In this document: positions 4,833 to 62,000 of the stretch, one piece after another
Layout: every line of letters starts with the position of its first letter
Numbering within the stretch: position 1 is the stretch's first letter
The notes under the pieces: model-generated
Told to the model about the DNA's origin: nothing
What the model saw: only the letters and a program-made list of their open reading frames with translations
Database searches by the model: none
DNA from: Lewinella sp. 4G2
GTDB lineage: Bacteria > Bacteroidota > Bacteroidia > Chitinophagales > Saprospiraceae
DNA: 64,000 nucleotides
Direction: 5' to 3'
Assembly (NCBI RefSeq): GCF_001625015.1
Contig: NZ_LVWJ02000014.1
Span: forward strand, 3,968,001-4,032,000
Program-made: the position numbers and the translations under genes

Positions 4833-4850
4833 AGCACCTGCGCCAGCGCC
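4833..4850 (+). repeat. 18-bp dispersed repeat, copy 1
   Basis: AGCACCTGCGCCAGCGCC, two differences from the consensus GGCACCYGCGGCAGCGCC. It lies in the ilvC-ilvA gap in opposite orientation to copy 2, about 70 nt away. Confidence 0.65.
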
Positions 4851-4921
4851 CTGATGGCGTAGATTAGCCGTCGTTAATTCGGCGCCTTACTCCACTTTTG
4901 CTTTACTTGCGTAAGCATCCG

Positions 4922-4939
4922 GGCGCTGCCGCGGGTGCC
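4922..4939 (-). repeat. 18-bp dispersed repeat, copy 2
   Basis: GGCGCTGCCGCGGGTGCC, the exact reverse complement of the C-form consensus, 55 nt before the ilvA start. With copy 1 it makes an inverted pair that could form a large hairpin in the ilvA leader. Confidence 0.85.
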
Positions 4940-4994
4940 AGGCAAAGGACCAAGAAAACAGGAACGACTGCGAACAGGAAGACCGACCCCAACA

Positions 4995-6251
4995 ATGAAT
5001 ACGCAACTTATGCCCTCCGTATCCGTCGAAGACATCACCCGCGCCCACCTGCGGTTGAAGGGCATTGTGCTGGATTCGCCCCTGCAGTATAGCCACCGGC
5101 TAAGCGAAATCTACGGCGCGAATATCTACCTGAAACGGGAGGATTTACAGGAAGTGCGGTCGTACAAGATCCGGGGGGCCTACAACAATATGTCGTTACT
5201 CTCCGACGCTCAACGCGCCCAGGGCGTAGTGTGCGCCAGCGCCGGAAATCACAGCCAGGGAATGGCGCTCGCCTGCGCAAAAATGGGCGTCCGGGGGACG
5301 ATCTTCATGCCCTCCGTCACCCCCCAGCAAAAGGTAAAAAAGGCAAAAGCATTCGGTAAGGAATTCGTTGAAGTCGTCCTCGTCGGCGATACCTACGACG
5401 ACGCGTACGCCGAAGCAATCAAGGCGGCCGAAACGAATGGTTGGACCTTTGTACACCCCTTCGACGACCTGAATACCATCGCCGGACAGGGAACGGTGGG
5501 CCTGGAGATCTACTCCGCAGCGAACTTCCCGATCCACAAAGTGGTGATGGCCATCGGTGGTGGTGGCCTGAGTGCTGGAGTGGGTAGCTTTTTCAAAGCC
5601 CTGAGCCCGGAAACGGAGATCATCGGCGTCGAACCAAAGGGGGCCCCGTCGATGTACGAAAGCCTGCGGGCGGGCAAGATCGTAAACCTGGAGAAAATTG
5701 ACTCCTTCGTCGACGGAGCTGCCGTCCGCCAGGTGGGTAAGATCAATTTCCCCATCGTACAGGAAGTAGTCAAAGAAGTTATTCTAGTGCCGGAAGGGCA
5801 GGTTTGCGCGACGATGTTGGACTTGTACAATGAGGACGGGATCGTGGCCGAGCCCGCCGGTTGCCTTTCCGTTGCCGCCCTGGCTAAACTCGGAGACATC
5901 CGGGGCCAGAACATCGTCTGCGTAATTGGGGGCGGGAACAACGACATTGCCCGCACGTCGGAGATCCAGGAACGCGCCTTGTTGTGGGCCGGCTTGAAAC
6001 ACTACTTTATCGTCGAATTCCCCCAACGTGCCGGTGCGCTGCGCGACTTCCTCCACGTACTCGGGCCGGACGACGACATCACGCACTTTGAGTACACGAA
6101 GAAACATAACCGAGCCGTTGGCCCAGCACTGGTCGGCATCCAATTGTCGGACCCGGCGACTTACGACGACACGATGAAACGGATGGCGGAAAGCGGTTTC
6201 AAGACCCGCGCCATCAACAAAGATTCTACGTTATTTGAGATGTTCATTTGA
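4995..6251 (+). CDS. ilvA: Threonine dehydratase (biosynthetic)
   Basis: PLP-dependent deaminase converting threonine to 2-oxobutanoate, the first step to isoleucine. The PLP lysine lies in SYKIRGAYN near residue 56, the phosphate-binding glycine loop GGGGLSAG near residue 188, and an ACT-like regulatory region occupies roughly residues 330-418 (from about HYFIVEFPQRAG). The chosen start ATG 4995 gives 418 residues; the frame is open to 4935, but that extension runs through a dispersed repeat and low-quality sequence. ATG 5010 is an alternative. The single ACT-like domain suggests feedback control by isoleucine, inferred from the family. Confidence 0.93.
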   Translation: MNTQLMPSVSVEDITRAHLRLKGIVLDSPLQYSHRLSEIYGANIYLKREDLQEVRSYKIRGAYNNMSLLSDAQRAQGVVCASAGNHSQGMALACAKMGVRGTIFMPSVTPQQKVKKAKAFGKEFVEVVLVGDTYDDAYAEAIKAAETNGWTFVHPFDDLNTIAGQGTVGLEIYSAANFPIHKVVMAIGGGGLSAGVGSFFKALSPETEIIGVEPKGAPSMYESLRAGKIVNLEKIDSFVDGAAVRQVGKINFPIVQEVVKEVILVPEGQVCATMLDLYNEDGIVAEPAGCLSVAALAKLGDIRGQNIVCVIGGGNNDIARTSEIQERALLWAGLKHYFIVEFPQRAGALRDFLHVLGPDDDITHFEYTKKHNRAVGPALVGIQLSDPATYDDTMKRMAESGFKTRAINKDSTLFEMFI

Positions 6252-6273
6252 TGGGTTAGCGCGGAGCGGGGCT

Positions 6274-6281
6274 TACCTTAG
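6274..6281 (+). promoter_or_regulatory. -7 element of the AddA-like helicase gene
   Basis: TACCTTAG, one base off TAnnTTTG, 5 nt before ATG 6287. TTTG at 6247-6250 is a possible -33 element with a long 23-nt spacer. Confidence 0.45.
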
Positions 6282-6286
6282 CCCGC

Positions 6287-9520: not shown

Positions 9521-9660
9521 TTGCGGGAAGAAATAAAGATTAAACGTGTGCCCAGCAGCGTAGTCCAGTAAAGGATATTTCAATTTTCCACAGCGCTGTA
9601 AGGGGGTTAGAGTGAACACGAGAGGGTTTGGCTTCCGTTCTACAGGAAACTATCAACCTT

Positions 9661-10341: not shown

Positions 10342-10367
10342 TTCCGATTCTGATACGAATAAAAACT

Positions 10368-10401
10368 TCCCCTGCTGTCTTCGGACGGCGGGGGATTTTT
10401 T
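10368..10401. terminator. Bidirectional rho-independent terminator
   Basis: Twelve-bp stem (TCCCCTGCTGTC / GACGGCGGGGGA, two G-T pairs) closed by a TTCG tetraloop, with six Ts on the plus side and five As upstream that would serve the minus strand. It separates the convergent genes ending at 10341 and 10430. Confidence 0.92.
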
Positions 10402-10429
10402 ATTGCTACTCTGCGTGATAATGCCGTAG

Positions 10430-10720
10430 CTACTCCTCCTCTTTACTCCCGATGCCGAGGAACGGTTTGAGTTTTTTCCACAGTTTGGCGGACTTATCGT
10501 CCATTTCTTCAGGCGTCTCACCACGGAAATTGCTGAGGATGTCGTAGAGCACGTTGAGCCGCCCTTCGACGTCGTAGAAACGGTTGATGATAGCGATCTT
10601 ACGGCTTTCGACGAGGCAGTAGCCGGACTGAAAGTTGCCTTTCTCGTAACGGACCGTGTAGCCCAGTTCTTTGGCCAGGGTCTCGACTTTCTTGAGATTA
10701 TGTTTTGTCGGGCTAAGCAT
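10430..10720 (-). CDS. Small conserved-type protein of unknown function
   Basis: 96 residues, soluble, charged, no signal peptide. It begins MLSPTKHNLKKVETLAKELG and carries a central segment with GNFQSGYCLVESRKI, then a helical, lysine- and glutamate-rich tail. Proteins of this look are common in Bacteroidota, but I know no function for them. A promoter box 6 nt upstream of the start (10727-10734) supports both the gene and its start. It is divergent from the outer-membrane protein gene at 10776. Confidence 0.75.
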   Translation of the reverse strand: MLSPTKHNLKKVETLAKELGYTVRYEKGNFQSGYCLVESRKIAIINRFYDVEGRLNVLYDILSNFRGETPEEMDDKSAKLWKKLKPFLGIGSKEEE

Positions 10721-10726
10721 TGGGCG

Positions 10727-11414: not shown

Positions 11415-11904
11415 ATTATCCCTTTGGCGTGGCGGTGCCCTTTCATTACTTGCCCTCTTGCTTTGCACCTGCGGCAGCGCCGAAAAGCCCGCTGAAGTTG
11501 TCGAGGAAAAACCTGCCACTTCGGTAGCTACATCTTCACCCGCTTACGAATCACTTTCGTTTGACCGCCTGAAGCACATCTACGAAAACGCGACCTACAT
11601 GGACGCGACTTTCTACGATTTGCCCATTTCCATCAACCAGAACGAGACGGCCCAAATCCAGACTACGCTGGCGGGCATTGGTAGCCAACCAATGGCTTAC
11701 CGCCCGGACTGTAAACCGATCGGCCATATCTGGTTTCAGATCAACGGGAAGAACGTGGAAGAGGCCGATATCTACTTTGAAAAAGGCTGCGTTGGCTACG
11801 TCTGGTACGACGCCGGCAAACCCGCGTTTTCGAATGCCATGACGGAAGATGGTGCCCGCTTTTACTTAAACATCATGTCGCAAGTCCCGGAGGATTTACG
11901 CTAG
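11398..11904 (+). CDS. Putative lipoprotein overlapping the outer-membrane protein gene
   Basis: 168 residues from GTG 11398, inside the end of the preceding gene in another frame. The first 30 residues form a lipoprotein-type signal (WRGGALSLLALLLC, then TCGSAEKP); an ATG-initiated form would have to start at 11344, deeper in the barrel gene, with a poorer N-terminus. The mature part has no recognised domain; it holds cysteines in YRPDCKPIGH and FEKGCVGYVWYD that could pair. An 18-bp dispersed repeat encodes the CTCGSA stretch at the end of the signal region. Overlap suggests translational coupling to the barrel protein. Confidence 0.7.
   Translation: MNLTSKLSLWRGGALSLLALLLCTCGSAEKPAEVVEEKPATSVATSSPAYESLSFDRLKHIYENATYMDATFYDLPISINQNETAQIQTTLAGIGSQPMAYRPDCKPIGHIWFQINGKNVEEADIYFEKGCVGYVWYDAGKPAFSNAMTEDGARFYLNIMSQVPEDLR
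11464..11481 (+). repeat. 18-bp dispersed repeat, copy 3 (in CDS)
   Basis: TGCACCTGCGGCAGCGCC, one difference from consensus. In frame within the lipoprotein signal region, where sequence constraint is low. Confidence 0.8.
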
Positions 11905-13481: not shown

Positions 13482-14846
13482 ATGCCCCTTAAGAAATCAA
13501 TCTCCGGCTTCCGTGGCACCATCGGCGGCAAAGCCGGCACCAACCTGACGCCCGAAGACATCGTCAGTAACGTCGCGGGCTACGGCGCGTGGCTGAAGGA
13601 ATCCGGGGCCAAACCGGTGGTGGTCATTGGCCGCGACGGACGCCCCTCCGGCCCAGTCGTTAAAGCACTCACGGCGGCGACTTTGCAAAGCGTGGGCATC
13701 GACGTGATTGACTGCGATTTTGCGACCACGCCTACAGTAGAAGTCTGCGTAACCCGCCACGAAGCGGGTGGTGGAATCATTTTATCCGCCAGCCATAACC
13801 CCAAGGAGTACAACGCTTTAAAGCTACTGAACGACAAGGGAGAATTCATCAGCGCTGCCGCAGGTGCCAGGTTGATGGAGATCGCGGCGGCCGGCGATAT
13901 TGAATACGCCACCGTAGACGAACTAGGATCCCTGACCACTGACGGAACGGCGCTACAGTACCACGTGGATTTGGTCCTGAACCATCCGCTCGTCAACGTT
14001 GAAGCCATTCGCGCCAAAGGCTTCCGCATTGTACTGGATGCCGTGAACTCCGTAGGCGCACTCGCCATCCCCGCCCTCTGCCGCGCCTTGGACGTGACCT
14101 GCGAGACCCTCAACGGGGAGCTCAATGGCGAGTTTGCCCACGACCCGGAACCCCTCCCCAAAAACATGACCCAACTCCTGGAACGGATGCAGGAAAGTGA
14201 AGCCGACCTCGGCGTCGCGGTGGATCCCGACGTAGACCGCCTCGCCCTCGTCGGCCCGGGCGGCACCTGGATTGGCGAAGAGTACACCCTGGCTACGGTG
14301 GCGGATTACGTGCTGCGCCACACGCCCGGCCCGGTGGTCTCCAACCTCAGCAGCAGCCGGGTAGTAGCGGACATTGCCAAACGCTACGGTCAGGAATACC
14401 ACGCCTCCGCCGTGGGGGAAGTCAACGTCGTAGCAAAAATGAAGGAAGTCGGCGCCGCCATCGGCGGAGAAGGGAACGGCGGCATCATCGATCCGCAGTT
14501 GCACTACGGACGGGACAGCCTGATTGGGCTCGCCCTCGTACTGAGCCACCTTGCCACTTCCGGAAAGGGGATCAACGACCTGCGTGCCTCCTACCCCGAT
14601 TACGAAATGATCAAGGACAAGAAAGCCGTGAGCGATGATTACGATCTCGCTTCCGCGTTCGTGCGGGTCGAGCAGAAATTTAGCGACGTCCCTGCTAACA
14701 AGGTAGATGGTTTGAAACTGGATTTTCCCGATGGCTGGGTCCACCTCCGTGCGTCCAATACGGAGCCCATCGTCCGGGTATACGCGGAGGCGCCCACGGT
14801 GGCCCGTGCGCAGGAACTCGCCCAGGCGGTGATGGCGGAATTGTAA
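13482..14846 (+). CDS. glmM: Phosphoglucosamine mutase (alpha-D-phosphohexomutase family)
   Basis: 454 residues. It interconverts glucosamine-6-phosphate and glucosamine-1-phosphate for UDP-GlcNAc, peptidoglycan and LPS synthesis. The phospho-serine loop is ILSASHNP near residue 101, the magnesium loop DPDVDR near 247-252, and the phosphate-binding loop RASNTEPIVR near 424. Bacteroidota members of this group are usually called GlmM; phosphomannomutase activity cannot be excluded from sequence alone. It follows the divergent PAP2 gene and has its own -7 box. Confidence 0.88.
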   Translation: MPLKKSISGFRGTIGGKAGTNLTPEDIVSNVAGYGAWLKESGAKPVVVIGRDGRPSGPVVKALTAATLQSVGIDVIDCDFATTPTVEVCVTRHEAGGGIILSASHNPKEYNALKLLNDKGEFISAAAGARLMEIAAAGDIEYATVDELGSLTTDGTALQYHVDLVLNHPLVNVEAIRAKGFRIVLDAVNSVGALAIPALCRALDVTCETLNGELNGEFAHDPEPLPKNMTQLLERMQESEADLGVAVDPDVDRLALVGPGGTWIGEEYTLATVADYVLRHTPGPVVSNLSSSRVVADIAKRYGQEYHASAVGEVNVVAKMKEVGAAIGGEGNGGIIDPQLHYGRDSLIGLALVLSHLATSGKGINDLRASYPDYEMIKDKKAVSDDYDLASAFVRVEQKFSDVPANKVDGLKLDFPDGWVHLRASNTEPIVRVYAEAPTVARAQELAQAVMAEL

Positions 14847-16677: not shown

Positions 16678-16695
16678 GGCACCTGCGGTAGCGCC
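16678..16695 (+). repeat. 18-bp dispersed repeat, copy 4
   Basis: GGCACCTGCGGTAGCGCC, one difference from consensus, in the 56-nt gap between the convergent lipocalin-like and ACP-like genes. Confidence 0.85.
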
Positions 16696-21369: not shown

Positions 21370-22560
21370 GTGACGGTTGCCCTGACAATTATCCTGATTT
21401 TATGCGTACTTGGCGTGCTGCACACGTACGTCATTTACCCCTTCCTGACGATCAGGCGGGCGCTGCCGCAGGTAGAAAGAGATTGGAATGAACCCATCCC
21501 CACGGCTGACTGGCCACCGGTTTACGTACTGATGGCCGTCCACAACGAGGAAGCGGTCCTCCGGGAGAAAATGGAGTCACTCCTCACCCAGGATTACCGG
21601 GGTCAACTTAATTTTCTGATCGGCAGCGATAACAGTAGCGACGCCACCAACGATATTCTGAGGGAATACCAGCAGCGGGAATCCCGTCTCTCCCCTACCC
21701 TCTTTACTTCCCGCCAGGGGAAGCCCGCCATCATCAACCAACTCGCCCATCAGGCGGGGCCGGAGGGCGTTTACATCATCACCGACGCCAGCGTAATGCT
21801 GCGGCCGGACACCATCACCGAGCTCGTCCAACCGATGTTGCGGGATGAGCAACTGGCCGTCGTCGATACCACCATGGTCCAGACCGGCGGCACGGCCACG
21901 GGCATCGGCGCGGCGGAAACGGAATACATCGACCGTGAAGTCCAACTCAAGCGGGCCGAGGGTATGCTGTACGGAACGATGATTGGCCCTTTCGGTGGCT
22001 GCTACGCCCTGCGCGCCGCCGCGTTTCGCCCCGTACCGGATCGGTTTTTGGTGGATGATTTCTACCTGTGCATGTCCGCCTACGAATTAGGTTACCGCGG
22101 GATTAGCAGCCCTACGGCCATTGTAGAAGAAAGCGTCGGGCAGCACATCCACGAAGAGTTCCGCCGGAAGGTGCGCATAAGTAGTGGGAACTGGCAGAAC
22201 CTGATTCGCTTTCGCAGCTTGTGGTGGTTCCCCACGAAATCCAAGTTGGCCTGGAGTTTCTTCAGCCACAAGGTCCTCCGATGGTGGACGCCCTTTTTGC
22301 TCCTAATTGGCGCTTTGGCCTGGCTGGGATTAGCCCTTTGCACGGGCAACCATTGGGTGTGGTTATCGTTTACTGTACTCAGCGGTTTGGTCCTCACGGG
22401 TGCGCTTGCGGACGTATTGTTGTCCGATGCTGGCATCCACGTCAGCGCCCTTCGAAAACTGCGTTATTTTTTGGCGATGAACGTGGCCCTCCTGGTCGGC
22501 TTCTACCGCTACCTCACCGGAATCTCTACCAATGTCTGGCAACCAAGCAACCGTCACTAG
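21370..22560 (+). CDS. Membrane-anchored family 2 glycosyltransferase
   Basis: 396 residues. An N-terminal transmembrane helix (residues 4-22), a cytoplasmic GT2 domain with VLMAVHNEE, GSDNSSDATND, ITDASVML (DxD-like) and DDFYLCM, then QHIHEEFRRKVRISSGNWQNL, and three C-terminal helices. The layout is that of processive or lipid-linked GT2 enzymes of cell-surface polysaccharide synthesis; donor and acceptor are unknown. Start GTG 21370 follows a perfect -7 box. The last 29 nt overlap ribBA in another frame. A partial dispersed repeat lies in RRALPQVERD. Confidence 0.85.
   Translation: MTVALTIILILCVLGVLHTYVIYPFLTIRRALPQVERDWNEPIPTADWPPVYVLMAVHNEEAVLREKMESLLTQDYRGQLNFLIGSDNSSDATNDILREYQQRESRLSPTLFTSRQGKPAIINQLAHQAGPEGVYIITDASVMLRPDTITELVQPMLRDEQLAVVDTTMVQTGGTATGIGAAETEYIDREVQLKRAEGMLYGTMIGPFGGCYALRAAAFRPVPDRFLVDDFYLCMSAYELGYRGISSPTAIVEESVGQHIHEEFRRKVRISSGNWQNLIRFRSLWWFPTKSKLAWSFFSHKVLRWWTPFLLLIGALAWLGLALCTGNHWVWLSFTVLSGLVLTGALADVLLSDAGIHVSALRKLRYFLAMNVALLVGFYRYLTGISTNVWQPSNRH
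21459..21473 (-). repeat. 18-bp dispersed repeat, copy 5 (partial, in CDS)
   Basis: GGCGCTGCCGCAGGT, the first 15 bases of the reverse-complement consensus without change, in the juxtamembrane part of the glycosyltransferase. Only 15 of 18 bases, so this copy is less certain. Confidence 0.5.
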
Positions 22561-23723: not shown

Positions 23724-24251
23724 TTACCGGTTGTTTAAGTCGGGTAGCGTCCACTTTGTATCCTTCTTTCCTTTGGGTTTACGCAGTTCGGATTGGTCTT
23801 GCACGGCGCTTTTATCGGTGGCGCGGTACTTTCGCTGCTTACCCGTTCGCTGGTCCTTCAGGATCAAGTGTTCTTCATTGACCGCGACGATATCGTAAAC
23901 GATATAAAAATCACGGCCCCGCTTGTAGCGTGGATGCACGAGCCCTTCGCCCATGAAACCATCCACGGAAAGGGTAAGCGCAATCCCTTCTTTTTTCCAA
24001 CGCCCGAGCAGGTGGCGGTACTTTCTGGCGGACTCCTTTACGGCGTCCTCAGCAAAATTCAAGTCGTCCGTTAAGCTGAGCAGGTAGCCGGGGTGCAGTG
24101 ACCCTTTTTCCTCTTCCCACGCTGGTGTTGTTAGCAGCATTAGCGTATCCACCACCGGCGCAGCATCAACTAATAAAGCAGGCTGTTTGACCTGGGCGCT
24201 AGCGCAGGTACTCAGGCAAAGGGCAAGCAGACAAAGGGTCAAGAATCGCAT
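23724..24251 (-). CDS. Secreted protein of unknown function
   Basis: 175 residues from ATG 24251; the 18 residues before it do not look like a signal, whereas MRFLTLCLLALCLSTCASAQ is a good one (cleavage after ASAQ or, if LSTC is a lipobox, before the cysteine). The mature protein is charged with a helical KESARKYRHLLGRWKKEG segment and strands around DFYIVYDIVAVNEEHLIL, and a lysine-rich C-terminal region. No family recognised. It is convergent with ribBA, 16 nt away. Confidence 0.65.
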   Translation of the reverse strand: MRFLTLCLLALCLSTCASAQVKQPALLVDAAPVVDTLMLLTTPAWEEEKGSLHPGYLLSLTDDLNFAEDAVKESARKYRHLLGRWKKEGIALTLSVDGFMGEGLVHPRYKRGRDFYIVYDIVAVNEEHLILKDQRTGKQRKYRATDKSAVQDQSELRKPKGKKDTKWTLPDLNNR

Positions 24252-27578: not shown

Positions 27579-28376
27579 ATGCTAAGACTACTCAAGCAAC
27601 TTTTCGGGTTCTTCTGTTTGCTGGCTACTGTATTTGCCTGCTCCGGCAAGCCCACACAACCCAGTACGATGCCTATGGCCACTCCCGCGAAAGACTTACT
27701 GAACCGCGCCCTGCAAGCCCACGGTTACGCCGGCGCGGATAAGCTCGCGTACCGTTTCACGTTCCGGGGCGTGGACTACAGTTTCAACCGTGACTTAGAA
27801 AGGAGCCTGTACACGCGCACAACTTACGTAGAGAGTGACACCATCCTGGACGTGCTGACCAACGGCCGCCTGGTACGATTCACCAATGGCGTACCGGTAA
27901 GCTTGCCGGATACGATGGCCGCCAAGTATGGCCGTTCGGTGAATTCCGTAATCTACTTCGCATCCCTCCCCGATAAGCTAACGGATGCTGCAGTCAACTT
28001 GTCTTTGGACGGAAATGCAACAATCAAGGGTAAAGAATACCAGTTGCTACGGATACACTTCGACGAGGAGAATGGGGGCGACGACCACGACGACAATTTC
28101 CTGTACTGGATCAACGACTCGACGGACCGCGTCGACTATCTGGCATACGATTACCGGGTGGATGGCGGAGGCGTTCGCTTCCGCTCGGCCTATAATCCAC
28201 GAGTTATCGACGGGGTGCTATTTTCGGATTACGTGAACTACAAAGCGCCAATGGGTACCCCCTTGAATGATCTACCCCAGCTCTACGAGCGAGGGGAGCT
28301 GAAAGAACTCTCCCGGATCGAACTTGAAGAAGTTGCGGTGGTGGAGGAGGTATGGCAGGCTAGTCCTCCGAAATAG
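27579..28376 (+). CDS. Putative lipoprotein, DUF6503-like
   Basis: 265 residues from ATG 27579. Lipoprotein signal MLRLLKQLFGFFCLLATVFAC with lipobox VFAC. The mature part starts with a helix containing LLNRALQAHGYAGADKL and continues with many beta strands (FTFRGVDYSF, LLRIHFDEEN, YDYRVDGGG), resembling the DUF6503 group of Bacteroidota lipoproteins (LolA/LolB-like fold expected). Function unknown. A TACCTTGC just upstream resembles a -7 box. The 3' end overlaps mqnD by 17 nt, convergently. Confidence 0.72.
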   Translation: MLRLLKQLFGFFCLLATVFACSGKPTQPSTMPMATPAKDLLNRALQAHGYAGADKLAYRFTFRGVDYSFNRDLERSLYTRTTYVESDTILDVLTNGRLVRFTNGVPVSLPDTMAAKYGRSVNSVIYFASLPDKLTDAAVNLSLDGNATIKGKEYQLLRIHFDEENGGDDHDDNFLYWINDSTDRVDYLAYDYRVDGGGVRFRSAYNPRVIDGVLFSDYVNYKAPMGTPLNDLPQLYERGELKELSRIELEEVAVVEEVWQASPPK

Positions 28377-29226
28377 GAGCGGGCAACACGCCGCGTTCCC
28401 TACCCTGCTCCAGGAAGGCCTTTACGGCGGCGTGGCCTTCGGTGCCGAGGTCTCGGGAGAACTCATTGACGTATAGCTCGATGTGTTTGCGCCGCACTTC
28501 GGCGTCCATTTCCTGGGCGTGCTCAGCGACGTAGGCAGCGGAGGCATCCGGATTTTCGAAAGCGTAACGGACCGAACGCGCGAGCACCCGGTCGAAGGTT
28601 TCCCGTACCTCCTGAGGCAGATTTTTACGAATCACAATACCGCCGAGGGGAATCGGCAGGCCCGTTTGTTCTTCCCAGTACTCGCCCAGATCCGCGATTT
28701 TGTGGAGGCCCCTTTCGTGGTAGGTGAAACGGTTTTCGTGGATCAGCAGGCCGGCGGTAAATTCTCCACTCAGTACGCGGCCCTCAATGTCGGAGAACAA
28801 CACTTCCTCTTTGTTTACCAATCCCGGATAGGCCAGCCCCAGCAGGTAGTTTGCGGTGGTGTACTTTCCTGGGATTGCGACTTTAGGGTTAGGATATTTC
28901 CACCAGTTATTTGCCGGTTCATCCCCATTACTAACCACCTGCGGCAGCGCCAATTCTTTGTTTGCCGTCACTAAAAGCGGACCGACACCACGGCCCAGCG
29001 CGCTGCCGGCGTTGAGCAAAGCATACTGATCGGTAAGGTGGCCGTAAGCGTGGTAACTGAGTTTGGTGACGTCCATCTCACCCCGAAAGGCAAGTTGATT
29101 GAGCTCTTCTACGTCACCAAGATGCACCTCAAACTCCAGGCCTTCCGTGTCGATGCGGTGGTGAACCAAGGCATCGAAAATGAAGGTATCGTTCGGGCAG
29201 GGGCTATAGGCCAGGGTCAGTTTCAT
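28360..29226 (-). CDS. mqnD: 1,4-dihydroxy-6-naphthoate synthase (MqnD)
   Basis: 288 residues from ATG 29226. Futalosine-pathway enzyme forming 1,4-dihydroxy-6-naphthoate from cyclic dehypoxanthine futalosine, towards menaquinone. The periplasmic-binding-protein-like fold is recognisable by LAYSPCPNDTFIFDALV at the N-terminus, TKLSYHAYG, IPGKYTTANYLLGL and HENRFTYHERGLHKIADLGE. The chosen start lies 4 nt after a perfect -7 box. A dispersed 18-bp repeat encodes LALPQVVS around residue 96, just before an insert-like segment NGDEPANNWW. This implies menaquinone synthesis by the futalosine route rather than MenA-H. Confidence 0.92.
   Translation of the reverse strand: MKLTLAYSPCPNDTFIFDALVHHRIDTEGLEFEVHLGDVEELNQLAFRGEMDVTKLSYHAYGHLTDQYALLNAGSALGRGVGPLLVTANKELALPQVVSNGDEPANNWWKYPNPKVAIPGKYTTANYLLGLAYPGLVNKEEVLFSDIEGRVLSGEFTAGLLIHENRFTYHERGLHKIADLGEYWEEQTGLPIPLGGIVIRKNLPQEVRETFDRVLARSVRYAFENPDASAAYVAEHAQEMDAEVRRKHIELYVNEFSRDLGTEGHAAVKAFLEQGRERGVLPAPISED
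28934..28951 (+). repeat. 18-bp dispersed repeat, copy 6 (in mqnD)
   Basis: ACCACCTGCGGCAGCGCC, two differences at the outer end from the consensus; in frame in mqnD, in a probable surface loop. Confidence 0.65.
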
Positions 29227-29249: not shown

Positions 29250-29267
29250 GGCGCTGCCGCGGGTGCA
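29250..29267 (-). repeat. 18-bp dispersed repeat, copy 7
   Basis: GGCGCTGCCGCGGGTGCA, one difference from the reverse-complement consensus, between the mqnD promoter and the end of the T9SS protein gene. Confidence 0.85.
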
Positions 29268-33957: not shown

Positions 33958-34368
33958 TCATCCGCCCGCTTTTTTGGCTCCACGGTAACCCTCGGCTGTG
34001 AGGATCTCCATCACCTTATCGCGCTTATTCCCCTGAATGACGATCTCGCCATTTTTTGCGGATCCGCCTACGCCACACTTCTTTTTTAGGGTCTTGGCCA
34101 ATTCGGTTAGTTGGTCATCGGTACCATCGAAACCGGTGATCAGGGTTACTGCCTTACCACGGCGTTGTTTCCGGTCGATGTAGACCCGTAGGGCCATTGT
34201 TGCTCGCCCCATTACCTCGGCACCTGCGGCAGCGCCCTCTTCTTGTGCTGGCAGATCTTTGGGTGCATCGGGCAGGCCACTGAGACCGGAGAGTGCTGCG
34301 AATGGATTATCGGCCGCGCCATCGCCCGTACTGAAACTGGTCTTTCCCTTTTGTTTCTTCTTGCTCAT
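33958..34368 (-). CDS. SUI1/eIF1-like translation factor (YciH family)
   Basis: 136 residues from ATG 34368 ([12 protein letters not shown]). After a disordered, glycine/alanine-rich N-terminal half, the eIF1 fold begins near residue 62: [48 protein letters not shown] and [18 protein letters not shown]. YciH-type factors bind the small ribosomal subunit and influence initiation fidelity. The linker contains EEGAAAGAE, encoded by a dispersed 18-bp repeat. The gene follows DUF983 by 10 nt on the same strand; the longer upstream frame overlaps that gene. Confidence 0.88.
34219..34236 (+). repeat. 18-bp dispersed repeat, copy 8 (in SUI1-like gene)
   Basis: GGCACCTGCGGCAGCGCC, exact T-form consensus; read on the coding strand it encodes Gly/Ala residues of a disordered linker. 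Confidence 0.88.
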
Positions 34369-34378
34369 GGTCAATTTT

Positions 34379-34810
34379 TTAGGTACCGCTGACGATGGTA
34401 GGGACTGATTTAGTGATCGTACCGGCATCAACGGCGGCGGTTGCCTGGGGGCGGTATTTTTGAACGATGTGAAAGTACAGCGACCGCGATAGGCGGAACC
34501 ACCAAACAAAAAACAAGGTACCCCACAGCAGCAAGAACAGGAAGGACATCGCGAAACCTACGCCCAGAACCCAGTGTAGCAGCATGACGAAGCCCAGGCT
34601 GAAAAAGCCCGAACCGATGTAGGAGATGAACATGGCCCCGTAATAGAAGCCCGGTTCCGGGAAGTAATTCTGGCCACACTTCGGGCAATGCTCGTACTGT
34701 TTGAAGGGCAGCCGCAGCGAAAATGAGCTGGTGGGGAAGAGATCACCCCGTCGGCAACGCGGGCAAGTCATGCGGAATACGGAACCGATCCAGGTGGGGT
34801 TATTGGGCAT
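34379..34810 (-). CDS. DUF983 zinc-ribbon membrane protein
   Basis: 143 residues. An N-terminal zinc ribbon ([10 protein letters not shown] near residue 16 and CPKCGQNYF near 42) is followed by two or three transmembrane helices (about 57-80 and 84-105), the DUF983 arrangement. Function unknown; members occur near cytochrome oxidase or envelope genes in other phyla. Here it leads a two-gene transcript with the SUI1-like gene. Confidence 0.85.
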
Positions 34811-38221: not shown

Positions 38222-40399
38222 CTACAGGATCACCGTTCCCAGCTCCGCCGCCAATTCTTTGCGCATCTGGTCCAACTGCTGCTGCACCTTAAGGTGTAGG
38301 ATCAGCCCGTCTTCGTCTCCGGCGCGATCCAGTTCTTTGATTTTCGCAATGTTTTCCCGGCACTTACGATCGATCTTTTCCATCCGGAAGATGCGTAGGA
38401 AATTATCCGCGTAGGCCCGCTGGTTGTCCTCGGGTAATTTTTGGCGCAGGATGACGTCGTACTTTTCCCGCCAGTTCGGGCTCATGGAATACTTTTTGGT
38501 AGTCGCCTCAATGGCGAGTTGACGGATCTTTTCGTCCTCGTGGTTCAGGAAAAATTCTGGTGGCGGGGCCAGCTCATTGGCGGAAACTTCCATCACCATC
38601 AGCACGACCTTGCGCGCGATGGGGGCATCAAAATCATTGAGGAGGTCGGCGATATTTCTGGTCAGAAAAGTACCGACGCTTAGGTGTTGCTCTTCGTCGT
38701 AATGGCTGCTTCCGTGGCGGATCAGCAGGCGGGCGAGGTCGAGCTCCTGGTAGGTTTCCCCCGTCAGAATTAGTGGGCTACCGACCCGGTCGAGGGAATC
38801 CTCGCTGGGTGCCGGTCCGGGGTCAGGGCCAAATCCAGGTTCCGGGCCAAAGTAGGCGTCCGGCGGGCCACCCCAGCCATCTTCTTCGCCACCACCGGCC
38901 CAGCCCATGTCCTCCATTCCGGCCCAATTCTCGTCACTGCTATCGGCCTTCGGCGGGGGCGCTGCCGCGGGTGCGGAGTTAGGGGGTGGAGTACCGGGGA
39001 AGGGCGCATGATCGTACCCTTCCTTTTGCCGACGGGCCGGCCGTTGACCAACGGGGCCACGCTGGCGACGCCGCGCTTCGCGTTCCGCATCCCGTTTTGC
39101 CTTTTCCCGTCGCTCAGCCACGGCGGTATTGACGAGGTTGATGAGTAAGGACTCCTCCAACCCCAGGCGGCCGGAGAATTGCTGGACGTAGCCCTGCCGC
39201 TTGAGGGGATCGTCCACCAAAGCCAGCGTGGAGATGCTGGACCGGATCGCTTCGCTCCGCGCGGCGACGTCATCCCCCGCCTCTTCCAGCAGGAGATCGG
39301 ATTTAAAGAACAGGAAGTCCCGTCGGGAATCGACCAGAAATTTTTCGAAGGCCGTCGTCCCTACCTTCTGCATGTAGCTATCGGGATCTTCCCCGTCGGG
39401 GAGGATGACTACGCGGACGTTCAGCCCTTCAATGAGTAGTACGTCCACCCCGCGGAGGGCAGCTTTGATTCCCGCCTTGTCTCCGTCGTAGAGGAGGGTG
39501 ACGTTCTCCGTTTGTCGCTTAACCAGACGAGCCTGCCCCGGGGTAAGGCTGGTGCCGGAGGTCGCTACGACGTTGGTCACCCCGTGCTGGTGCAGGCTGA
39601 TGACGTCGGTGTAACCCTCCACCATATACACGTTGTCCAACTTACGAATCGACTGCCGCGCCTGGTAGATCCCGTAGAGGACGTCCGACTTATGGTAGAC
39701 CTCCGTTTCCGGGCTGTTGACGTACTTGGGCGCCTTGACGTTCGTCTTCAGGATGCGCCCGGCAAAGGCAATCGGCTTCCCCTGAAGGTTGTGGATGGTG
39801 AACATCACCCGGTCAAAGAAGAAATCCTTCTTGTTGCGGATGAGCCCCAGTTTGTCGAGCTGCTCGGGCTTATACCCAGCCGCCGTTGCGGCTTTGAAAA
39901 GGGCATCCCTTTTGAAGGGTGCGTAACCGAGCCCAAACTTTTGCATGACGTCCTTACGGAAGCCCCGGCTCTTGAAATAGCTGAGCCCGACGCTCTTGCC
40001 CTCGTCCGTATTATAGAGTTGGTCCTCGTAGAACTGCCGTGCGAATTCGTTGACAAGCAGTAGGCTTTCCTTTTCCCGGCGCTCCTCCTTTACCTCCTCG
40101 CTGACTTCAACTTCTTCCAGTTTGAAGTTGTAGCGGGCGGCGATTTTCCTAATGGCTTCGGGGAAGCTGAGTTGCTCCAGCGTCATCAGAAATTTGACGG
40201 GGTCCCCACCCTCGCCGCAGCCAAAACACTTGTAGATGTTTCTGGCTGGGTTGACGTTAAAGCTCGGCGTTTTCTCATTATGGAAGGGACACAGACCGAT
40301 CATGTTCTGGCCCCGGCGACGCAGATTTACGTAGTCGCCAACGATGTCTTCCACGCGGGCCATCTCGATGACTTCCCGTACGCTATCCTCTTTGATCAT
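38222..40399 (-). CDS. dnaG: DNA primase
   Basis: 725 residues. It makes RNA primers for replication. The N-terminal CHC2 zinc finger (CPFHNEKTPSF and YKCFGCGEGGD, residues 37-65), the core and Toprim catalytic domain (VEGYTDVISLHQHG, YDGDKAGIKAA, PDGEDPDSY) are intact. A long proline-, glycine- and aspartate-rich linker (about 455-545, with SAPAAAPPPK and GPDPGPAPSED) separates them from a helical C-terminal DnaB-interaction domain. A dispersed repeat encodes part of the linker. A perfect -7 box lies 5 nt before the start codon. Confidence 0.95.
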   Translation of the reverse strand: MIKEDSVREVIEMARVEDIVGDYVNLRRRGQNMIGLCPFHNEKTPSFNVNPARNIYKCFGCGEGGDPVKFLMTLEQLSFPEAIRKIAARYNFKLEEVEVSEEVKEERREKESLLLVNEFARQFYEDQLYNTDEGKSVGLSYFKSRGFRKDVMQKFGLGYAPFKRDALFKAATAAGYKPEQLDKLGLIRNKKDFFFDRVMFTIHNLQGKPIAFAGRILKTNVKAPKYVNSPETEVYHKSDVLYGIYQARQSIRKLDNVYMVEGYTDVISLHQHGVTNVVATSGTSLTPGQARLVKRQTENVTLLYDGDKAGIKAALRGVDVLLIEGLNVRVVILPDGEDPDSYMQKVGTTAFEKFLVDSRRDFLFFKSDLLLEEAGDDVAARSEAIRSSISTLALVDDPLKRQGYVQQFSGRLGLEESLLINLVNTAVAERREKAKRDAEREARRRQRGPVGQRPARRQKEGYDHAPFPGTPPPNSAPAAAPPPKADSSDENWAGMEDMGWAGGGEEDGWGGPPDAYFGPEPGFGPDPGPAPSEDSLDRVGSPLILTGETYQELDLARLLIRHGSSHYDEEQHLSVGTFLTRNIADLLNDFDAPIARKVVLMVMEVSANELAPPPEFFLNHEDEKIRQLAIEATTKKYSMSPNWREKYDVILRQKLPEDNQRAYADNFLRIFRMEKIDRKCRENIAKIKELDRAGDEDGLILHLKVQQQLDQMRKELAAELGTVIL
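38958..38975 (-). repeat. 18-bp dispersed repeat, copy 9 (in dnaG linker)
   Basis: GGCGCTGCCGCGGGTGCG, one difference from the reverse-complement consensus; encodes APAAAP in the disordered primase linker. Confidence 0.82.
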
Positions 40400-44995: not shown

Positions 44996-45013
44996 GGCAC
45001 CTGCGGCAGCGCC
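44996..45013 (+). repeat. 18-bp dispersed repeat, copy 10
   Basis: GGCACCTGCGGCAGCGCC, exact T-form consensus, directly beside the AT-rich inverted repeat at 45021-45076 in the gap between yidC and the lipoprotein gene. Confidence 0.9.
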
Positions 45014-47073: not shown

Positions 47074-47526
47074 ATGCATCTTCCCGGCGTCGCCCCTGCG
47101 TTCCACCCCGCATTGCACCGCGAGTATTGTGCCAGCGTCTACGTCTGCCACAATTTCCGGCTGCGTTCCGGTTCCCCCAACGCGTCGTTTACGGATTGGA
47201 TCGCCGCGCGCGGCTATTCGTCCTATGCCTTTCTGACGGCCTACAATCCCTATTCCAACCGCCAACTATCCCGCGCGGACAATTTGGCGCTGGCGCAGGT
47301 GCTAAGAAATAGGATCAAGGACCTAGCCATCGACGCCGTACCCGCCGCCGCCGTGGACGTGACCGGCACCTGGCCAGAGGAAGTAGGCCTAATGCTATTA
47401 GGGGTGGACCTGGGTACCGCCCTCCAGCTCGGACGGGAGTTTCAACAGAATGCCATCCTCTACGGAAAGACTGGAAACGCAGCTGCCGTGCTCTGGTGCG
47501 AATGCCGGCTCCCCTCCCCTATCTGA
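47074..47526 (+). CDS. DUF3293-family protein
   Basis: 150 residues from ATG 47074. The segment FLTAYNPYSNRQLSRADNLALAQVL near residues 53-77 matches the DUF3293 pattern; the rest is compact alpha/beta, ending WCECRLPSPI. Function unknown. The frame is open upstream to 46405 antisense to yidC, but that part is not protein-like. It is divergent from yidC and overlaps the convergent lamin-tail gene by 8 nt. The annotation rests on the short motif. Confidence 0.65.
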   Translation: MHLPGVAPAFHPALHREYCASVYVCHNFRLRSGSPNASFTDWIAARGYSSYAFLTAYNPYSNRQLSRADNLALAQVLRNRIKDLAIDAVPAAAVDVTGTWPEEVGLMLLGVDLGTALQLGREFQQNAILYGKTGNAAAVLWCECRLPSPI

Positions 47527-51747: not shown

Positions 51748-51765
51748 GGCACCCGCGGCAGCGCC
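51748..51765 (+). repeat. 18-bp dispersed repeat, copy 11
   Basis: GGCACCCGCGGCAGCGCC, exact C-form consensus, in the dnaK-surface protein gap, 55 nt before ATG 51821. It makes the TTG at 51746 look like a start codon, which is rejected. Confidence 0.9.
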
Positions 51766-51820: not shown

Positions 51821-54800
51821 ATGAACACCGCCTCCGTAAAATTTCTCCTGACGCTAAGCTTCATGCTTTATTGCTGCTTACTGAGTGACGTGCTTAATGG
51901 TCAGCGCGTTACCTCGATTACGGCGAATCGGGTAGTGGTCTGCGACACGGTCGGTGGTCGGTTTCAACTGAGTATTGACAATGGTGCTACCGCGGTGAAC
52001 GACGCCAGTCTGCAGGTCCGGTTGGGATTGGACGTTGAGTATATACCCGGCAGCTTGGTGCAGATGGCCGGCCCAATGCTGGAATTTGACCCGGCGAGTG
52101 ACGGCCGCGCTCCGATCTTCAATATCGTGGAGACCTGGGCGCCCGGTCAACAGATTTCATTCAGCATCGGTAAGCAAGGGGGATGTGCTGCGCGGGAGAG
52201 CAGAATTAATAATGAGTTGTTTATTGATACCATCCGCTTGCTGGATGGGGCTGCCATGGAGTTGCCGCTTAACGGGCAGGACACCGTACCGTTCAACGTT
52301 ATCTACGCGGAACTGACCACGTCGGTACTGGCTACCGATCCACCAGTCATCACACAGCCGCAGGATACTGTGACCCGAAGGGTGCAAATCACTAACGGTA
52401 GTTTTGGATTCCTGCGAGAATTTACGTTCGGGGAAATTGACTCTACCGGGCAGAGCACGTACGCCAACTTCGTACTGGATCCGGATGGCGCCGCCGTGCC
52501 ACTCGGAGATGGGATAGTGAACGGCCTTGAGACTACCGTTACTATTGACAGCGATGACATGGTACAGGTGGCCGGATTTACCGGAGGCTTATTCCGCTCC
52601 AACCGGCGCCTGACGCTGGAGTACGACGTGATCGTCTCCACCTGTTCGAATGCCGGCATTACCTCATTTCCCTATTCCCAGTACGACTGTTTCGGGGAAG
52701 TCTGCCAGGGGGACACCACCATTGCAAACATCGGTAATCTGCAAGCCCAACCCGACGTCAGTGTAGATGTCTCTCGTAACTACAGCTTCTGTTATGGGTA
52801 CGATGAGGCGCCGGATACCACCTTCGTTACGCTAATCAACAGTGGCGACGGTCCCGCAACGGATTTATCCGTCCTGTACCGGGTTGCGCGTACGGAGACG
52901 AGTGCGCTCGACACGATGAACATCAATTATCGTATCGGGCAGGAGCCGCTGCGAGATATAGCTGCCGCAGAAGTGTTCGATACCCGCGGTAATGAGAACA
53001 CGAATCTTTTCGGTTGTGAGGACCAAGAAGCTCAATTGGGCCTAGGCAACCTGGCCAACTTTGGTTTTCGGGTCAACTTCCCCGACACCCTGGCTGCTGG
53101 AGATACTTTGACGCTACGCATCTTTAGCTATAAGTGTTGCCCGGAGGACTGTATTCAGGATCCGTTTTACGGGTTTCTGCGTTTTGGCGGGGCTAACACT
53201 AACGAAACGGATTACCGGTATAATAACCTATGCCGGACGAGCCCCGTTATTGGCCGCCTGCCTGGGTACAGCAGCTTTTTCACCTTCGATAATAACGTGA
53301 CGCTCCCCACTACCTTTTTTGTGGGTGACACCTTCCCCGCCCGTATTGACTTTCCACGCCTGGGCCTGACAGCCGATTTTCCTTTTGACGAAGACTCGGG
53401 CTACCTGGAGATCTTGGCCCGCACTTCGGACCGGACGGACCCTGCCAACGTAATGTTCTTTAACCAGAATGGCGATTTTATTCCGGCACTGAATGCGGTG
53501 ACTTCTACGGATGATAGTATCATCTACCGTATTCCCCTGGAAATGGGAGAGACGTACGATGGATCCTTTTTAAGCTTTGACGTTAACATCGACTGTAGTG
53601 AGCCGGCAGTGAACGAAACCTTTTCGTACGAAATTCGCCTCGTCACGTCTACAGCATCGACTTGTGCTTCCAACTGTAGTTTCCTCGTAGCGTGTGAAAA
53701 TTTTGGCGTGGCTACGAACTGCCCCGGGCCCTGTGAGGGAGCGGCTTACCGTAGTTATACGGTGCAACGGACTAATATTGGAGAGTTCGACATGGACGAC
53801 AATGGCTGTCCCGATGATGATAACAACTGTGATAATGTGCCTGGCGATAGTTCCGGAGCGCCCCCTCCACCCGCTCCCAATATTGACAGCCTAGCCCTCG
53901 ACCGGGTGATACGGGGTGATACGCTCGAGACACGCCTCACCTTCATTATTGGCGATACACTACCGAGACAAGGTTTCCCATTCCTGTACGTCCAGGATAG
54001 TCTGCAGCAGAACCTTTTTTCTTACCTCGAGGCTACGGCCACGGTCACCCGGGCGGCGGGGCCGGAAATCACGGTGGACAACGTCCCCAACCAAAGCAGC
54101 GGTGATTTGATTCGCTTCGATCTTAGCCCCAGCACCTTCCCGGGTTTTGTAGGCATTTACGAACGGGGTGACAGCCTGACGTTTATGGCTACCTACGTAG
54201 TCGGCGCTACTAATACAACGGTAGCCACGACCTACGAAATAGGAAATAATATCGCCGCGTCGCTGGTGGCGAAGCCAAATCCGGCCATCCCCTTTCAATA
54301 CGATGTGGAAGATTTCTCCTGTGGCGAGGTTGCCGGAACGATTTTGGTGAACGACGCCATTTTTACCAACAACAGTAATGAGGATGATCTATTCAACTCA
54401 TGCCGGGCCCAAGACATCGTCGGTTCCTTCAGTTTACGACTGAGCCCCAGCTCGCTAACTGGCGTGAATTACTTTCCTAACGAATATCGTAATCTGTTTA
54501 CGGTAGAGACGGTTACCGCCAGCGTTCCTCCCGGTTACGAGTATTTTATTGCGAGGATTCGTACTCAGCGGACGGCAGGCTCGGGTATGTCGCGCAATTC
54601 CCGCTTGTTTCTCCCTACCCCGACGACCATCACGGAAAGAAATGGGTACCAGGTATACACATTTGATTTCACCCAGGGCCCTAACGCAGAATTCTTCGAG
54701 TCCTTTGCTTTCCCTTCAGATGACTCCTTCAACGTTCTGTTCGACTTCTTCGTCAACCCAACCTGTGAGGCGGGTGACCGACTTACCGGAGGCAGCGCTA

Positions 54801-56956: not shown

Positions 56957-57010
56957 ATCCGTTCGTGCCCTACCTATTACCAATAAAACTTAGGTGTGTA
57001 AGGATTCGCT

Positions 57011-58951: not shown

Positions 58952-58955
58952 ACGG

Positions 58956-58963
58956 CGAAGGTA
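58956..58963 (-). promoter_or_regulatory. -7 element of the GT2 fusion gene
   Basis: Minus-strand TACCTTCG, 4 nt before ATG 58951. Confidence 0.55.
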
Positions 58964-59026
58964 AGTAGTCTACCGCCCGGCACTCGTGGCGCCACTGCGA
59001 TAAACTACTTACGGTTCGAAATTGCT

Positions 59027-62000
59027 TTAACGCATCAGAACGAAGTCGCCCTTATAGACTACTGATTCTCCATCGGAGAAATTGACGCGAGCGGTATACA
59101 CCAGCACCTGTGGATTCATGTATACGCCGTTGTGGCGTCCATCCCACCCAAAGTTGGGGTCGTTCGGTGGGAAACGGCCTTCAAAGTCACCAATTCCTTC
59201 AATGGAGTTGCTGGAGTAGACCAATTCTCCCCAGCGCGTATAGATCTCGAAGTCCTGGATGGAGGTGATGAGATCAGCATCCGCGTTGATGAAGTAGATA
59301 TCATTATTACCATCGCCATTCGGGCTGAAAGCAGAGGGGAAGTAGACCGGGCGCACTTTCCTGACGATCAACATCTGGTTATCCGTCGCGCGGCAGCCCA
59401 ACTCATCTACTACCGTTACCGAGATCATGCGCGTTTCGTCCGCAATAAACTCGATGCCGCTGTTACCTTCCGTAGTGGTCTTCAGGCTATCGGGTTGCCA
59501 AAGTAGCGTATCGATTACGTTCCCACCGTTGATGGTAGCCGTGATGAATACCTGGTCCCCAAAATTCACTTCGGAAGAATCACCGGGGAAGCGCAGGGAG
59601 ATGGTCAATTCCTCCGGCTCATCCAGGTCAATGATCAGGTCGCTGAAGCAGCCTTTTGCATCCGTTACCCGGATGGTGTACTCGTCCGGCGCCAACCCGT
59701 TGAACAGGGTCGATTCACCCCGTGGCTCACCGTTGAGGGTGTAACTGTAAGGGGCGAGACCACCATTTACGGCCGTCACCAGGATGGCACCATCATCGTT
59801 GGCAAAACAGGTGATGTTGCTGATCTCTACTTCGAGGGTCGGCGCTTCTACGTCTACTGTTACCAGGACGCTGTCGCGGTTGATACAGCCAGCGCTATTA
59901 GATACCTCCAGGTAGTAAACGCCCGGCTGGCTAACGTCAATCATCGGCTGGTCGGCATCGACGATCATTGCGTCGGGGTTATTGCTCGTCCACTCATAGG
60001 CGAAGCCGGGGCCGTTTTCACTGCCGCTGCCGTCCAGGGTCACCATCCCCATCTGGCAGGTAAGGGTTTGGTCGGGTCCGGCCTCTACTACCGGGTCGGC
60101 CAGCAAGGTGAGGCTCACTTCTGCTACGTCAACCGGGCAGCTGTTACCACCTACCGTGTAGCTAAATACATAATTCCCCGCGGCAAGATTACCCCGCGAA
60201 AGCGTGCCAGTCACGGCGTCCAGACTGCTGGAGGGCACGTCGCCAGTCACGGCTGCCCAGGTACCGCCGGCATCCGCATTCATGAGACGCGTGCTCAATT
60301 CGATGGGGCTGGGGTCGCCGACACAGAGTTCAAAGTTACCACCAACGGGGTCACCGGCAGTGCTGGATTCCTGAGCGGTGATGACCACCGAAGCAAAGTC
60401 CGTACAGCCATTCAGTTCCGTAGAAATGGTGACCGTGTACTCACCGAGGGAGGGGAAGGTTACGACGTATTCTCCGGGTGCCACTTGTGTTCCCGTACCG
60501 CCGCCGAAGTCTGGAGTCACTACGGCCGAACCGGGTGCATCGTTCATCGTAATCCTGACTTCACCGTCGGCACAAACGACCAATTCAGAAGCGGAGAACG
60601 CTGCGGCGGGCGTCGCGAAGACGTTCATGACCATCGTGTTGTCATAGCTACACAGCACTTCCTGAACGTAGCCGACGGTAAGCGTATGGCTACCCACGCC
60701 AGCTGCGACGGGGTCAAAGCTGAAGGTGCCATCACCGTTATCTACTACTCCGTCTCCTGACCAGGTTGTAGTCCCAGTGCCATCGTCTCCGGAGATCGTC
60801 ACGTTGAGGGCAACGGCCATTACGTCATCATCACAAAAATCAGTTTGCGCTGCCGCAGGTGCCAGGGAAATGGTCGGGCACTCCCGGGCGGAACAGGTAG
60901 CTTCAGCCGCAGGGCTGGTATTACAGTCCGTACCAGACCGTACGCTAATTACTGAGATGGTAACCGTTTCTCCACGCTCAAGCCCACTGACTTCGAAGAA
61001 AGGATCGGTCTGTACGGGCCCAAGTGGTCCGCCGTTGACGCTCACCTGGTAACCTTCGGAGGCCGCCCCTACGAGGGGCCACTCAAAGCGAACGCCGTCG
61101 AGGTCCTGCCGCACACAAGTTGGTACCGGAGCGTCCAGGGTGGGCGTTACGTCGATTACGAAGGAATCTTCATTGGAACAAGCCCCCGTTGCGGTTAGGC
61201 GGACGGTCTTGGAGCCGGGCGTATCCCAGCTTACTTCGTATTGCTCGTTACCCAGGGCAGTAGGTGTTCCACCATCCCAATCCCATACGTAGGTAGTGAG
61301 CGGATTGACGACGACGTCGAGGCCAACACTGATGGTCGTACCGGCGCAGACGGTAGGTGGAGTGGTTGAGATGACCGCTTCGGGTGGAGGAAGCAAGGTA
61401 AAGACCACGCTATCCCGCGTATCACAGATGGAAGGCCCATCGTAATCCACGAAGATGGTATAAATTCCTTGGGCCAAGCCAGCAGGATCAAAGATTTCGG
61501 AGCCGGGCGTACCCGTGACCCCCGCGCCGGACCAAACAATGGTCCCCATGAGCGGGCTACCGTCGTCCAGTGCAGCGGATAGTGATACTGCGGCTTCGGT
61601 GCCATCCAGACAGATGCCGGTATCTGGCGTAAGGGCGTCGATAGCGTTCGGCGGGCAGTCCATGGTCGTACACATTGCCGTAGCGGCGGGGCCGTTACCA
61701 CAAGGGCCAGTCCCCTGAGCGATGACGGTGAGTTCCGCGCTTTCACCCGGTAGTAAGTTACTGATGGTGTAGGTCCGTTCCCCAAGTGGGAGTGTTTCCA
61801 TTACGCCCGAGGGGGAGGATATAACCCATCCCTCCGCACCCGCGACAGCGCCCCATTCGAAGGTGACGGTGGTGAGGGTAGCCGCAGCGTCGTTGCAGGT
61901 GATGACCGGTGCTGCGAGGGAATCGAACACCGTAACCGGAAGCGTTTCTTCCAGACTCTCACAACCACTGATGTTGCTAACGACTGATCCAGTGATCGTT

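Follow-up and report, generated by a model that had tools for sequence, protein, structure and literature searches.

A strand-spaced, dialect-forming 17-bp motif in the genome of Lewinella sp. 4G2 as a possible DNA uptake-type self signal

A short motif dispersed along a 64,000-nucleotide stretch of Lewinella sp. 4G2 (contig NZ_LVWJ02000014.1, positions 3,968,001 to 4,032,000 of the forward strand; hereafter, the window) is a genome-wide signal, larger than the earlier note on this DNA had reported. Its copies are maintained rather than decaying; copies on the same strand avoid one another within about 3 to 4 kb, whereas those on opposite strands are nearly independent, and the motif is nearly restricted to the genus. 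We tentatively read its 17-bp core, together with a C/T-rich 5′ flank, as a self-recognition signal of the DNA uptake sequence (DUS) type that would be read strand by strand, with a probability of roughly 0.45.

Abundance and anatomy of the motif

Matches to the 18-bp motif with at most three mismatches numbered 17 in the window, compared with 0.25 on average over 100 shuffles, and all 13 places given in the earlier note carried the motif with 0 to 3 mismatches. At no more than one mismatch, GGCACCYGCGGCAGCGCC occurred 754 times in the 5.2-Mb genome and its reversed-pattern control not at all, a count far over expectation that bears out the earlier claim of nonchance recurrence. A broader pattern, GCACCNGCGNCNGCGCC, gave 993 matches in the same genome (G000), 774 in G002, and 31 in G017. 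We then defined copies as sites scoring at least 14 with a position weight matrix (PWM) that includes the flanks, which yielded 334 sites in 1.384 Mb of G000 DNA but a single site when that sequence was reversed; the analysis as a whole sampled about 37% of the genome. Chance or codon bias as the source of the motif was rejected on the basis of the shuffled patterns and reversed controls. An RNA element was also rejected, the only Rfam matches above the gathering score within the window being two tRNAs.

Sixteen PWM copies lie within the window in the orientation order +-+-+--+-+-+-+-+, and three of them, 13851(−), 24195(−), and 47286(−), are new. Two other candidates, 22432 and 49631, were discarded because they score below 8 and resemble ordinary coding sequence. 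The copies are listed below with their PWM scores and their counterparts in the relative G019.

4833–4850 (+): 31.1; intergenic, in an inverted pair with 4922(−); the same gap in G019 also has an inverted pair.
4922–4939 (−): 44.9; perfect C form, in the same intergenic gap as 4833; orthologous G019 copy.
11464–11481 (+): 43.0; encodes CTCGSA of the lipoprotein-like N-terminal stretch LLALLLCTCGSAEK, in a frame with no Pfam match; orthologous G019 copy in the other dialect.
13851–13868 (−): 26.2; antisense in the phosphoglucomutase/phosphomannomutase gene 13482–14846 (+), which has Pfam PGM_PMM domains.
16678–16695 (+): 35.8; intergenic; absent in G019.
21459–21476 (−): 20.9; degenerate, near the start of the glycosyltransferase frame 21370–22560 (+, Pfam); no G019 copy found.
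24195–24212 (−): 17.4; degenerate, region coordinate 164195; orthologous G019 copy.
28934–28951 (+): 27.5; antisense in the first third of the menaquinone-biosynthesis gene called at 28360–29226 (−), PF02621; absent in G019.
29250–29267 (−): 41.6; immediately before the start called for that menaquinone-biosynthesis gene; orthologous G019 copy.
34219–34236 (+): 43.5; antisense, right before the SUI1 domain (PF01253) of the translation-factor frame 33958–34509 (−); orthologous G019 copy.
38958–38975 (−): 39.4; sense, within the DNA primase gene dnaG 38222–40399 (−, Pfam DnaG domains); orthologous G019 copy.
44996–45013 (+): 36.6; intergenic, perfect T form; the matching G019 gap has a same-orientation site with two mismatches.
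47286–47303 (−): 37.3; antisense in the DUF3293 gene 47113–47526 (+, Pfam); orthologous G019 copy.
51748–51765 (+): 39.3; perfect C form, upstream of the called gene start at 51821.
60846–60863 (−): 30.1; sense in the large gene for a SprB/CHU_C-type secreted protein, 59027–63976 (−, Pfam; the frame runs on).
61835–61852 (+): 35.3; antisense in the same SprB/CHU_C-type gene.

Anatomy was derived from 184 copies found in 864 kb, each with two mismatches or fewer. Positions 2 to 6, 8 to 10, and 12 to 18 were near-fixed, position 7 was C or T, and position 11 was mostly G. The conserved unit comprises 17 bp together with a G-poor, C/T-rich stretch before it (about −17 to 0) and a C after it (+19). 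Its core consensus, GCACCYGCGNC(A/C)GCGCC, has about 14 of 17 positions fixed and contains a direct repeat, GCRCC, at a distance of 12 bp (GCACC at positions 2 to 6 and GCGCC at 14 to 18). The palindrome CTGC-G-GCAG previously described for this core is an accident of the species dialect: of 334 copies, only 178 have a standard pair between positions 7 and 13, and both G019 and G006 mostly carry C at the latter. At position 13, A predominates in G000 (0.87) but C in G006 (0.72) and G019 (0.80), and G002 is mixed; species differences extend to position 11 and the flank, and the few copies from loci of N. litorea, N. marina, JB7, N. maritima, and N. aquimaris have C at position 14.

Most copies fit the degenerate consensus without error: 154 perfect fits, 30 one-off, and 21 two-off matches were found in 800 kb, whereas six permuted patterns never matched perfectly and gave 0 to 2 matches with one deviation and 1 to 29 with two, so the two-off class is partly background. 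Markov-based k-mer enrichment was uninformative. Other repeats were over-represented in the samples as well, namely, one containing TCTTAATCCTTCTTGTGATGGAT in G002 contigs (56 to 58 counts in 200 kb), CCTACCGCCTA and CGATAGCTATC in G019 contigs, and CAACTCGCAACTC-type and TCTAAAATCTAA-type repeats in G000 stretches, with the TCTAAAATCTAA kind coming after the copy at window position 44996.

Strand-specific spacing

The 334 copies define 328 same-strand gaps with a mean of 8.3 kb and a coefficient of variation (CV) of 0.59, the commonest length being 5 to 8 kb. Five of these gaps were shorter than 2 kb, whereas an exponential distribution predicts 70; shuffling of strand labels at fixed places left 49 ± 5 such gaps and never fewer than 31. 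Opposite-strand pair counts were near expectation, except that divergent pairs less than 2 kb apart were over-represented. Adjacent opposite copies 0.6 to 1.4 kb apart were divergent in 31 cases and convergent in 5.

Same-strand exclusion and near-independence of the strands, with the divergent excess at short range, account for the alternation of neighboring copies (246 neighbors alternate in the 1.384 Mb, and 85 do not). The alternating fraction, 0.74, compares with 0.70 for two independent regular ladders and was reached in 8 of 1,000 simulations. With hand-set parameters, simulated alternation was 0.50 when no rule applied, 0.51 when the rule ignored orientation, and 0.71 when it was strand specific; of these three, only the strand-specific rule fits. 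Relatives behaved alike. Among the matches listed for G002 (98 of 100 places, with two single-copy contigs omitted), none of 88 same-strand gaps fell under 2 kb, with 11.8 expected (CV, 0.83), and the 14 neighbors within 1 kb were all inverted; among the 50 plus-strand places listed for G019, 0 of 49 gaps was that short against 7.3 expected.

Deletion between direct repeats is not favored as the origin of this exclusion, because a reach of about 3 to 4 kb probably exceeds the slippage expected for 18-bp repeats. The same-strand rule implies that each copy works for a single strand or direction, as would be the case for a Chi-like reader or a single-strand transformation step.

Orthologous sites and dialect change in place

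A region of about 115 kb surrounding the window in G000 runs collinear with 129 kb of G019, with alignable blocks mostly 64 to 83% identical. Leaving aside 11 GAPX matches without a clean interval and matches beyond the outermost blocks, 35 sites were mappable; G019 has a same-orientation site at the matching place in 23 cases and none in 12. Eight of these 12 are sites with at most one mismatch, so presence/absence variation of whole copies, a point raised in the earlier note, does occur. Within inter-block gaps, a same-orientation G019 copy was present in 14 of 20, against a mean of 2.2 and a maximum of 8 in 20,000 trials of random placement, and opposite-orientation copies were present in 4 of 20.

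Removal of two matches attributable to ordinary coding conservation (94257 and 162432, the latter corresponding to window position 22432) left 21 orthologous pairs that keep both site and orientation. A is replaced by C at position 13 in 20 of the 21, no differences occur at positions 4, 5, 8, 9, 10, 15, and 16, and ungapped identity is 0.80 in the core but 0.36 to 0.53 in the flanks. Because placement is kept, core identity is high, and the A-to-C change at position 13 is shared, the paired sites are old and yet still near-perfect, each written in the local dialect. The copy at 13851 provides a close view of such a site. The phosphoglucomutase/phosphomannomutase protein stretch is gap-free in G000 and 12 relatives (13 of 15 alignment rows; the Spr20G08 and G019 rows were out of register and omitted), only base substitutions distinguish the relatives' DNA from the motif, and G019 has its own dialect there. 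Judging from the aligned sequences, this copy arose without insertions or deletions (indels).

Distribution among relatives

The named proteins most similar to one window protein come from Neolewinella and Lewinella records, so the genus is most likely Neolewinella (Bacteroidota). We searched 40 genomes, i.e., G000, 20 more of the genus, and 19 outside it, with the form allowing at most one mismatch. It was present in 18, namely, G000 and 17 of the 20 other genus members, and in none of the 19 outside. Eleven of the 117 other family genomes drawn gave between 1 and 5 matches to the GCACCNGCGNCNGCGCC pattern. In the genus, a pattern broader still than GCACCNGCGNCNGCGCC yielded 113 to 1,357 copies in 18 of 21 genomes (controls, 0 to 14). 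The copy-poor members are G015 (113), G007 (43), G001 (7), and G011 (5); a k-mer search of 200 kb of G007 for an alternative dialect returned nothing clear.

Genomic placement

Gene context was assigned to 264 copies (locus L050, which overlaps the contiguous region, was left out) with a home-made caller, and the gene and gap counts are approximate because it misses genes such as the SUI1 frame 33958–34509. Called genes hold 145 of the 264 copies, 75 antisense and 70 sense, and 110 are intergenic. Densities were 0.15 per kb in coding sequence and 0.61, 0.62, and 1.21 per kb in tandem, convergent, and divergent gaps, respectively, i.e., copies are about 5-fold denser between called genes than within them. 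Those inside genes occupy tolerant places, such as signal peptides and Ala/Pro/Gly stretches, where the reading frames yield GAAAGA, ALPQV, or APAAAP. Twenty-one of the 264 copies are read in frame 0 no more than 130 bp from a called start; most of them form the end of a signal peptide (e.g., LFLCTCDSAQ). About 21 proteins share a near-identical signal peptide-like N-terminal end, often CTC-x-SAQ (e.g., L016:12091, L026:3728, and window 11464), because the motif is read through in frame. Intergenic copies at most 100 bp from called starts follow the gene direction in 41 cases and oppose it in 15.

No origin-to-terminus trend or strand bias was visible along 39 sampled 20-kb stretches, and both strands are equally used. 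Copy counts per stretch were more even than random (variance/mean, 0.63). Only two of the 39 were free of copies. One of them (L047; G000:C14:3300001-3320000) spans 20 kb at 37% GC, against about 55% around it, and looks acquired; the other (L041; G000:C14:2100001-2120000) is a single open frame of at least 19 kb, possibly encoding a giant surface protein.

A possible strand-read self signal and competing explanations

In the favored reading, a receptor or loader of the transformation pathway would prefer DNA carrying the motif, and motif-bearing DNA would be recombined into the chromosome more often. Such preferential recombination would spread the motif and rewrite it in place by molecular drive, and drive in place would give each lineage its own dialect. 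Each copy would serve one strand (or direction) for several kilobases and not the other. The selective step would be DNA uptake or strand transfer, the motif would be bound by a protein, and the drive would be recombinational. Near-perfect copies, concerted dialect differences, and tolerant locations together match the prediction of molecular drive through biased uptake, for which DUS dialects offer a precedent. The genome encodes ComEC and DprA. Species-specific DUS dialects are known (PMC3630211; here and below, citations refer to the available parts of the papers), uptake signals have been linked to molecular drive and even distribution (PMC7811141), and a weak strand preference is cited for single-stranded DUS (PMC12061091). 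Within Bacteroidota, Riemerella is competent, with no pilus homologue found according to the available text of PMC8459023, and Riemerella columbina prefers its own DNA, the candidate words listed in the available part of PMC7965970 being only A/T-rich and up to 10 bp long. Of the four options put forward in the earlier note, the uptake signal is the one that we favor; the REP-like mobile repeat found poor support (the hairpin is not kept, and five of the six Y1 neighborhoods, the one indel-free copy, and the dialect change do not suit it).

Several observations weigh against this reading. ComEC is present in 21 of 21 genus genomes, including G001 and G011 with almost no copies, and so cannot explain presence or absence of the motif. 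A pilus uptake machine, a trait of systems using DUS or uptake signal sequences (USS), is unsupported: the search, confined to the T2SSE family of pilus-type ATPases, returned no match above the cutoff and one subthreshold match. Haemophilus influenzae USS act regardless of orientation (PMC1939737), unlike our strand-spaced motif, and DUS and USS, at ca. 9 to 12 nucleotides (PMC12616744), are shorter than the 17-bp core. G019 lacks a copy at 12 of 35 mappable sites, and three in-gene sites found in G000 only (123650, 131369, and 168934) lie in gappy alignments, where insertion may have occurred. The spacing in G002 is less regular (CV, 0.83). Finally, competence of Neolewinella and the receptor are both putative.

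A broader and more doubtful proposal is that the motif represents a new class of chromosome-wide, strand-read signal, a per-strand ladder with rungs every 5 to 10 kb, written by some process acting on single strands several kilobases long. Pilus-less, strand-selective import or export of DNA, in which the site would fix where the strand starts or ends, would be one example.

If this broader proposal is true, the motif would be, as far as the literature searched shows, the first self signal of its kind in Bacteroidota and the first whose spacing is strand specific; no description of it was found in that literature, which takes in few subscription journals. In the literature consulted, self-recognition uptake sequences are described from Neisseriaceae and Pasteurellaceae, and a case in Bacteroidota that apparently have no pilus machine would be a further, independent one. 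It would help to find the outer membrane DNA importer of that phylum and would test the generality of molecular drive. Strand-specific exclusion could tell double-stranded from single-stranded reading of the signal, and motif-tagged DNA may transform Neolewinella, which would be a practical handle.

The main rival, though rather unlikely, is a Chi-like site, at which a helicase-nuclease of the AddAB/RecBCD type that has entered at a DNA end would recognize the motif in a single orientation and switch to recombination. One-orientation reading would require each orientation every few kilobases, independently, and a polar signal does predict orientation-specific exclusion with nearly independent opposite strands. 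The genome encodes two PDDEXK_1 proteins, one with UvrD helicase domains and the other with a relative in 21 of 21 genus genomes. However, this second protein, which matches no NCBIfam model, is equally present in G001 and G011 and hence cannot explain the copy-poor species. Known Chi sites have 5 to 8 bp, against a 17-bp core with about 14 fixed positions here, and Chi in Escherichia coli (77 sites in 300 kb) showed little exclusion, with 13 same-strand gaps below 2 kb versus 19.4 expected and a CV of 0.95. A dialect change at hundreds of sites would also be hard to achieve without drive.

The same difficulty with concerted dialect change would confront an asymmetric, one-directional binding site for a chromosome-organizing or DNA-translocating protein (a loop barrier, loader, or similar), which we regard as unlikely. 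Even spacing on each strand, copies all along the sampled chromosome, and the GCRCC direct repeat 12 bp apart in the core are consistent with it, but the 39 sampled stretches show no origin/terminus or strand trend, and three genus genomes are copy-poor (G001, G011, and G007).

A repetitive extragenic palindromic (REP)-like short mobile repeat copied by a REP-associated tyrosine transposase (RAYT, Y1 family) is very improbable. Copies are dispersed and often form inverted pairs at short range, and the genome has six Y1_Tnp genes; one of them (L010, 254 amino acids; G000:C11:337908-341138) has copies on either side, at 402 bp (−) and 502 bp (+), the sole fact favoring a RAYT link. Both of these copies lie inside neighboring open frames, and by our estimate such flanking of one gene in six is not surprising at the overall copy density. 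None of the remaining five Y1 genes has copies on both sides (no copies in the 1.5-kb flanks of L006 and L009; one side only in L005, L007, and L008). The 7:13 pair is not kept (178/334) and there is no conserved hairpin, 145 of 264 copies lie in called genes, and both the indel-free origin at the phosphoglucomutase site and the old, near-perfect orthologous copies in another dialect speak against transposition.

Least credible of all is a coding or regulatory by-product, i.e., a preferred signal-peptide end (CTCxSAQ) or a promoter-linked element, which could draw on the 21 in-frame copies near starts, the 2-fold density in divergent gaps, and the 41:15 bias within 100 bp of starts, but is contradicted by the 75 of 145 in-gene copies that are antisense, the 110 of 264 that are intergenic, and strand exclusion over kilobases; the signal-peptide motif was rejected as an explanation because it fits 21 of 264 copies only.

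Comparison with known systems

With REP/RAYT systems the motif shares dispersed short repeats, inverted pairs, and one in six Y1 genes flanked on both sides at 400 to 500 bp; it differs in having no conserved hairpin, more than half of its copies in called genes, and evolution in place. Chi sites are polar, read by orientation, and roughly similar in number per genome to the motif. The motif is, however, much longer, and E. coli Chi is without comparable exclusion.

USS of Pasteurellaceae combine a core with a weaker flanking tract, as does the motif. They are likewise distributed relatively evenly, without orientation bias, and are scarcer in newly acquired DNA (PMC7811141, PMC1939737). The difference lies in orientation: USS-dependent uptake is orientation independent (PMC1939737), whereas same-strand copies exclude each other here and opposite ones do not.

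DUS of Neisseriaceae measure ca. 9 to 12 nucleotides and are recognized by the type IV pilin receptor ComP (PMC12616744, PMC12061091), in contrast to a 17-bp core with strand-specific spacing in a genome with no T2SSE ATPase above the cutoff. They resemble the motif in their many copies in genes and gaps, in their inverted pairs, and in dialects that differ at a few core positions (PMC3630211). Set against DUS and USS jointly, the motif departs from the orientation-independent spacing of H. influenzae, its exclusion being same-strand only, but shares strong over-representation on both strands without chromosome-wide orientation bias, and species dialects.

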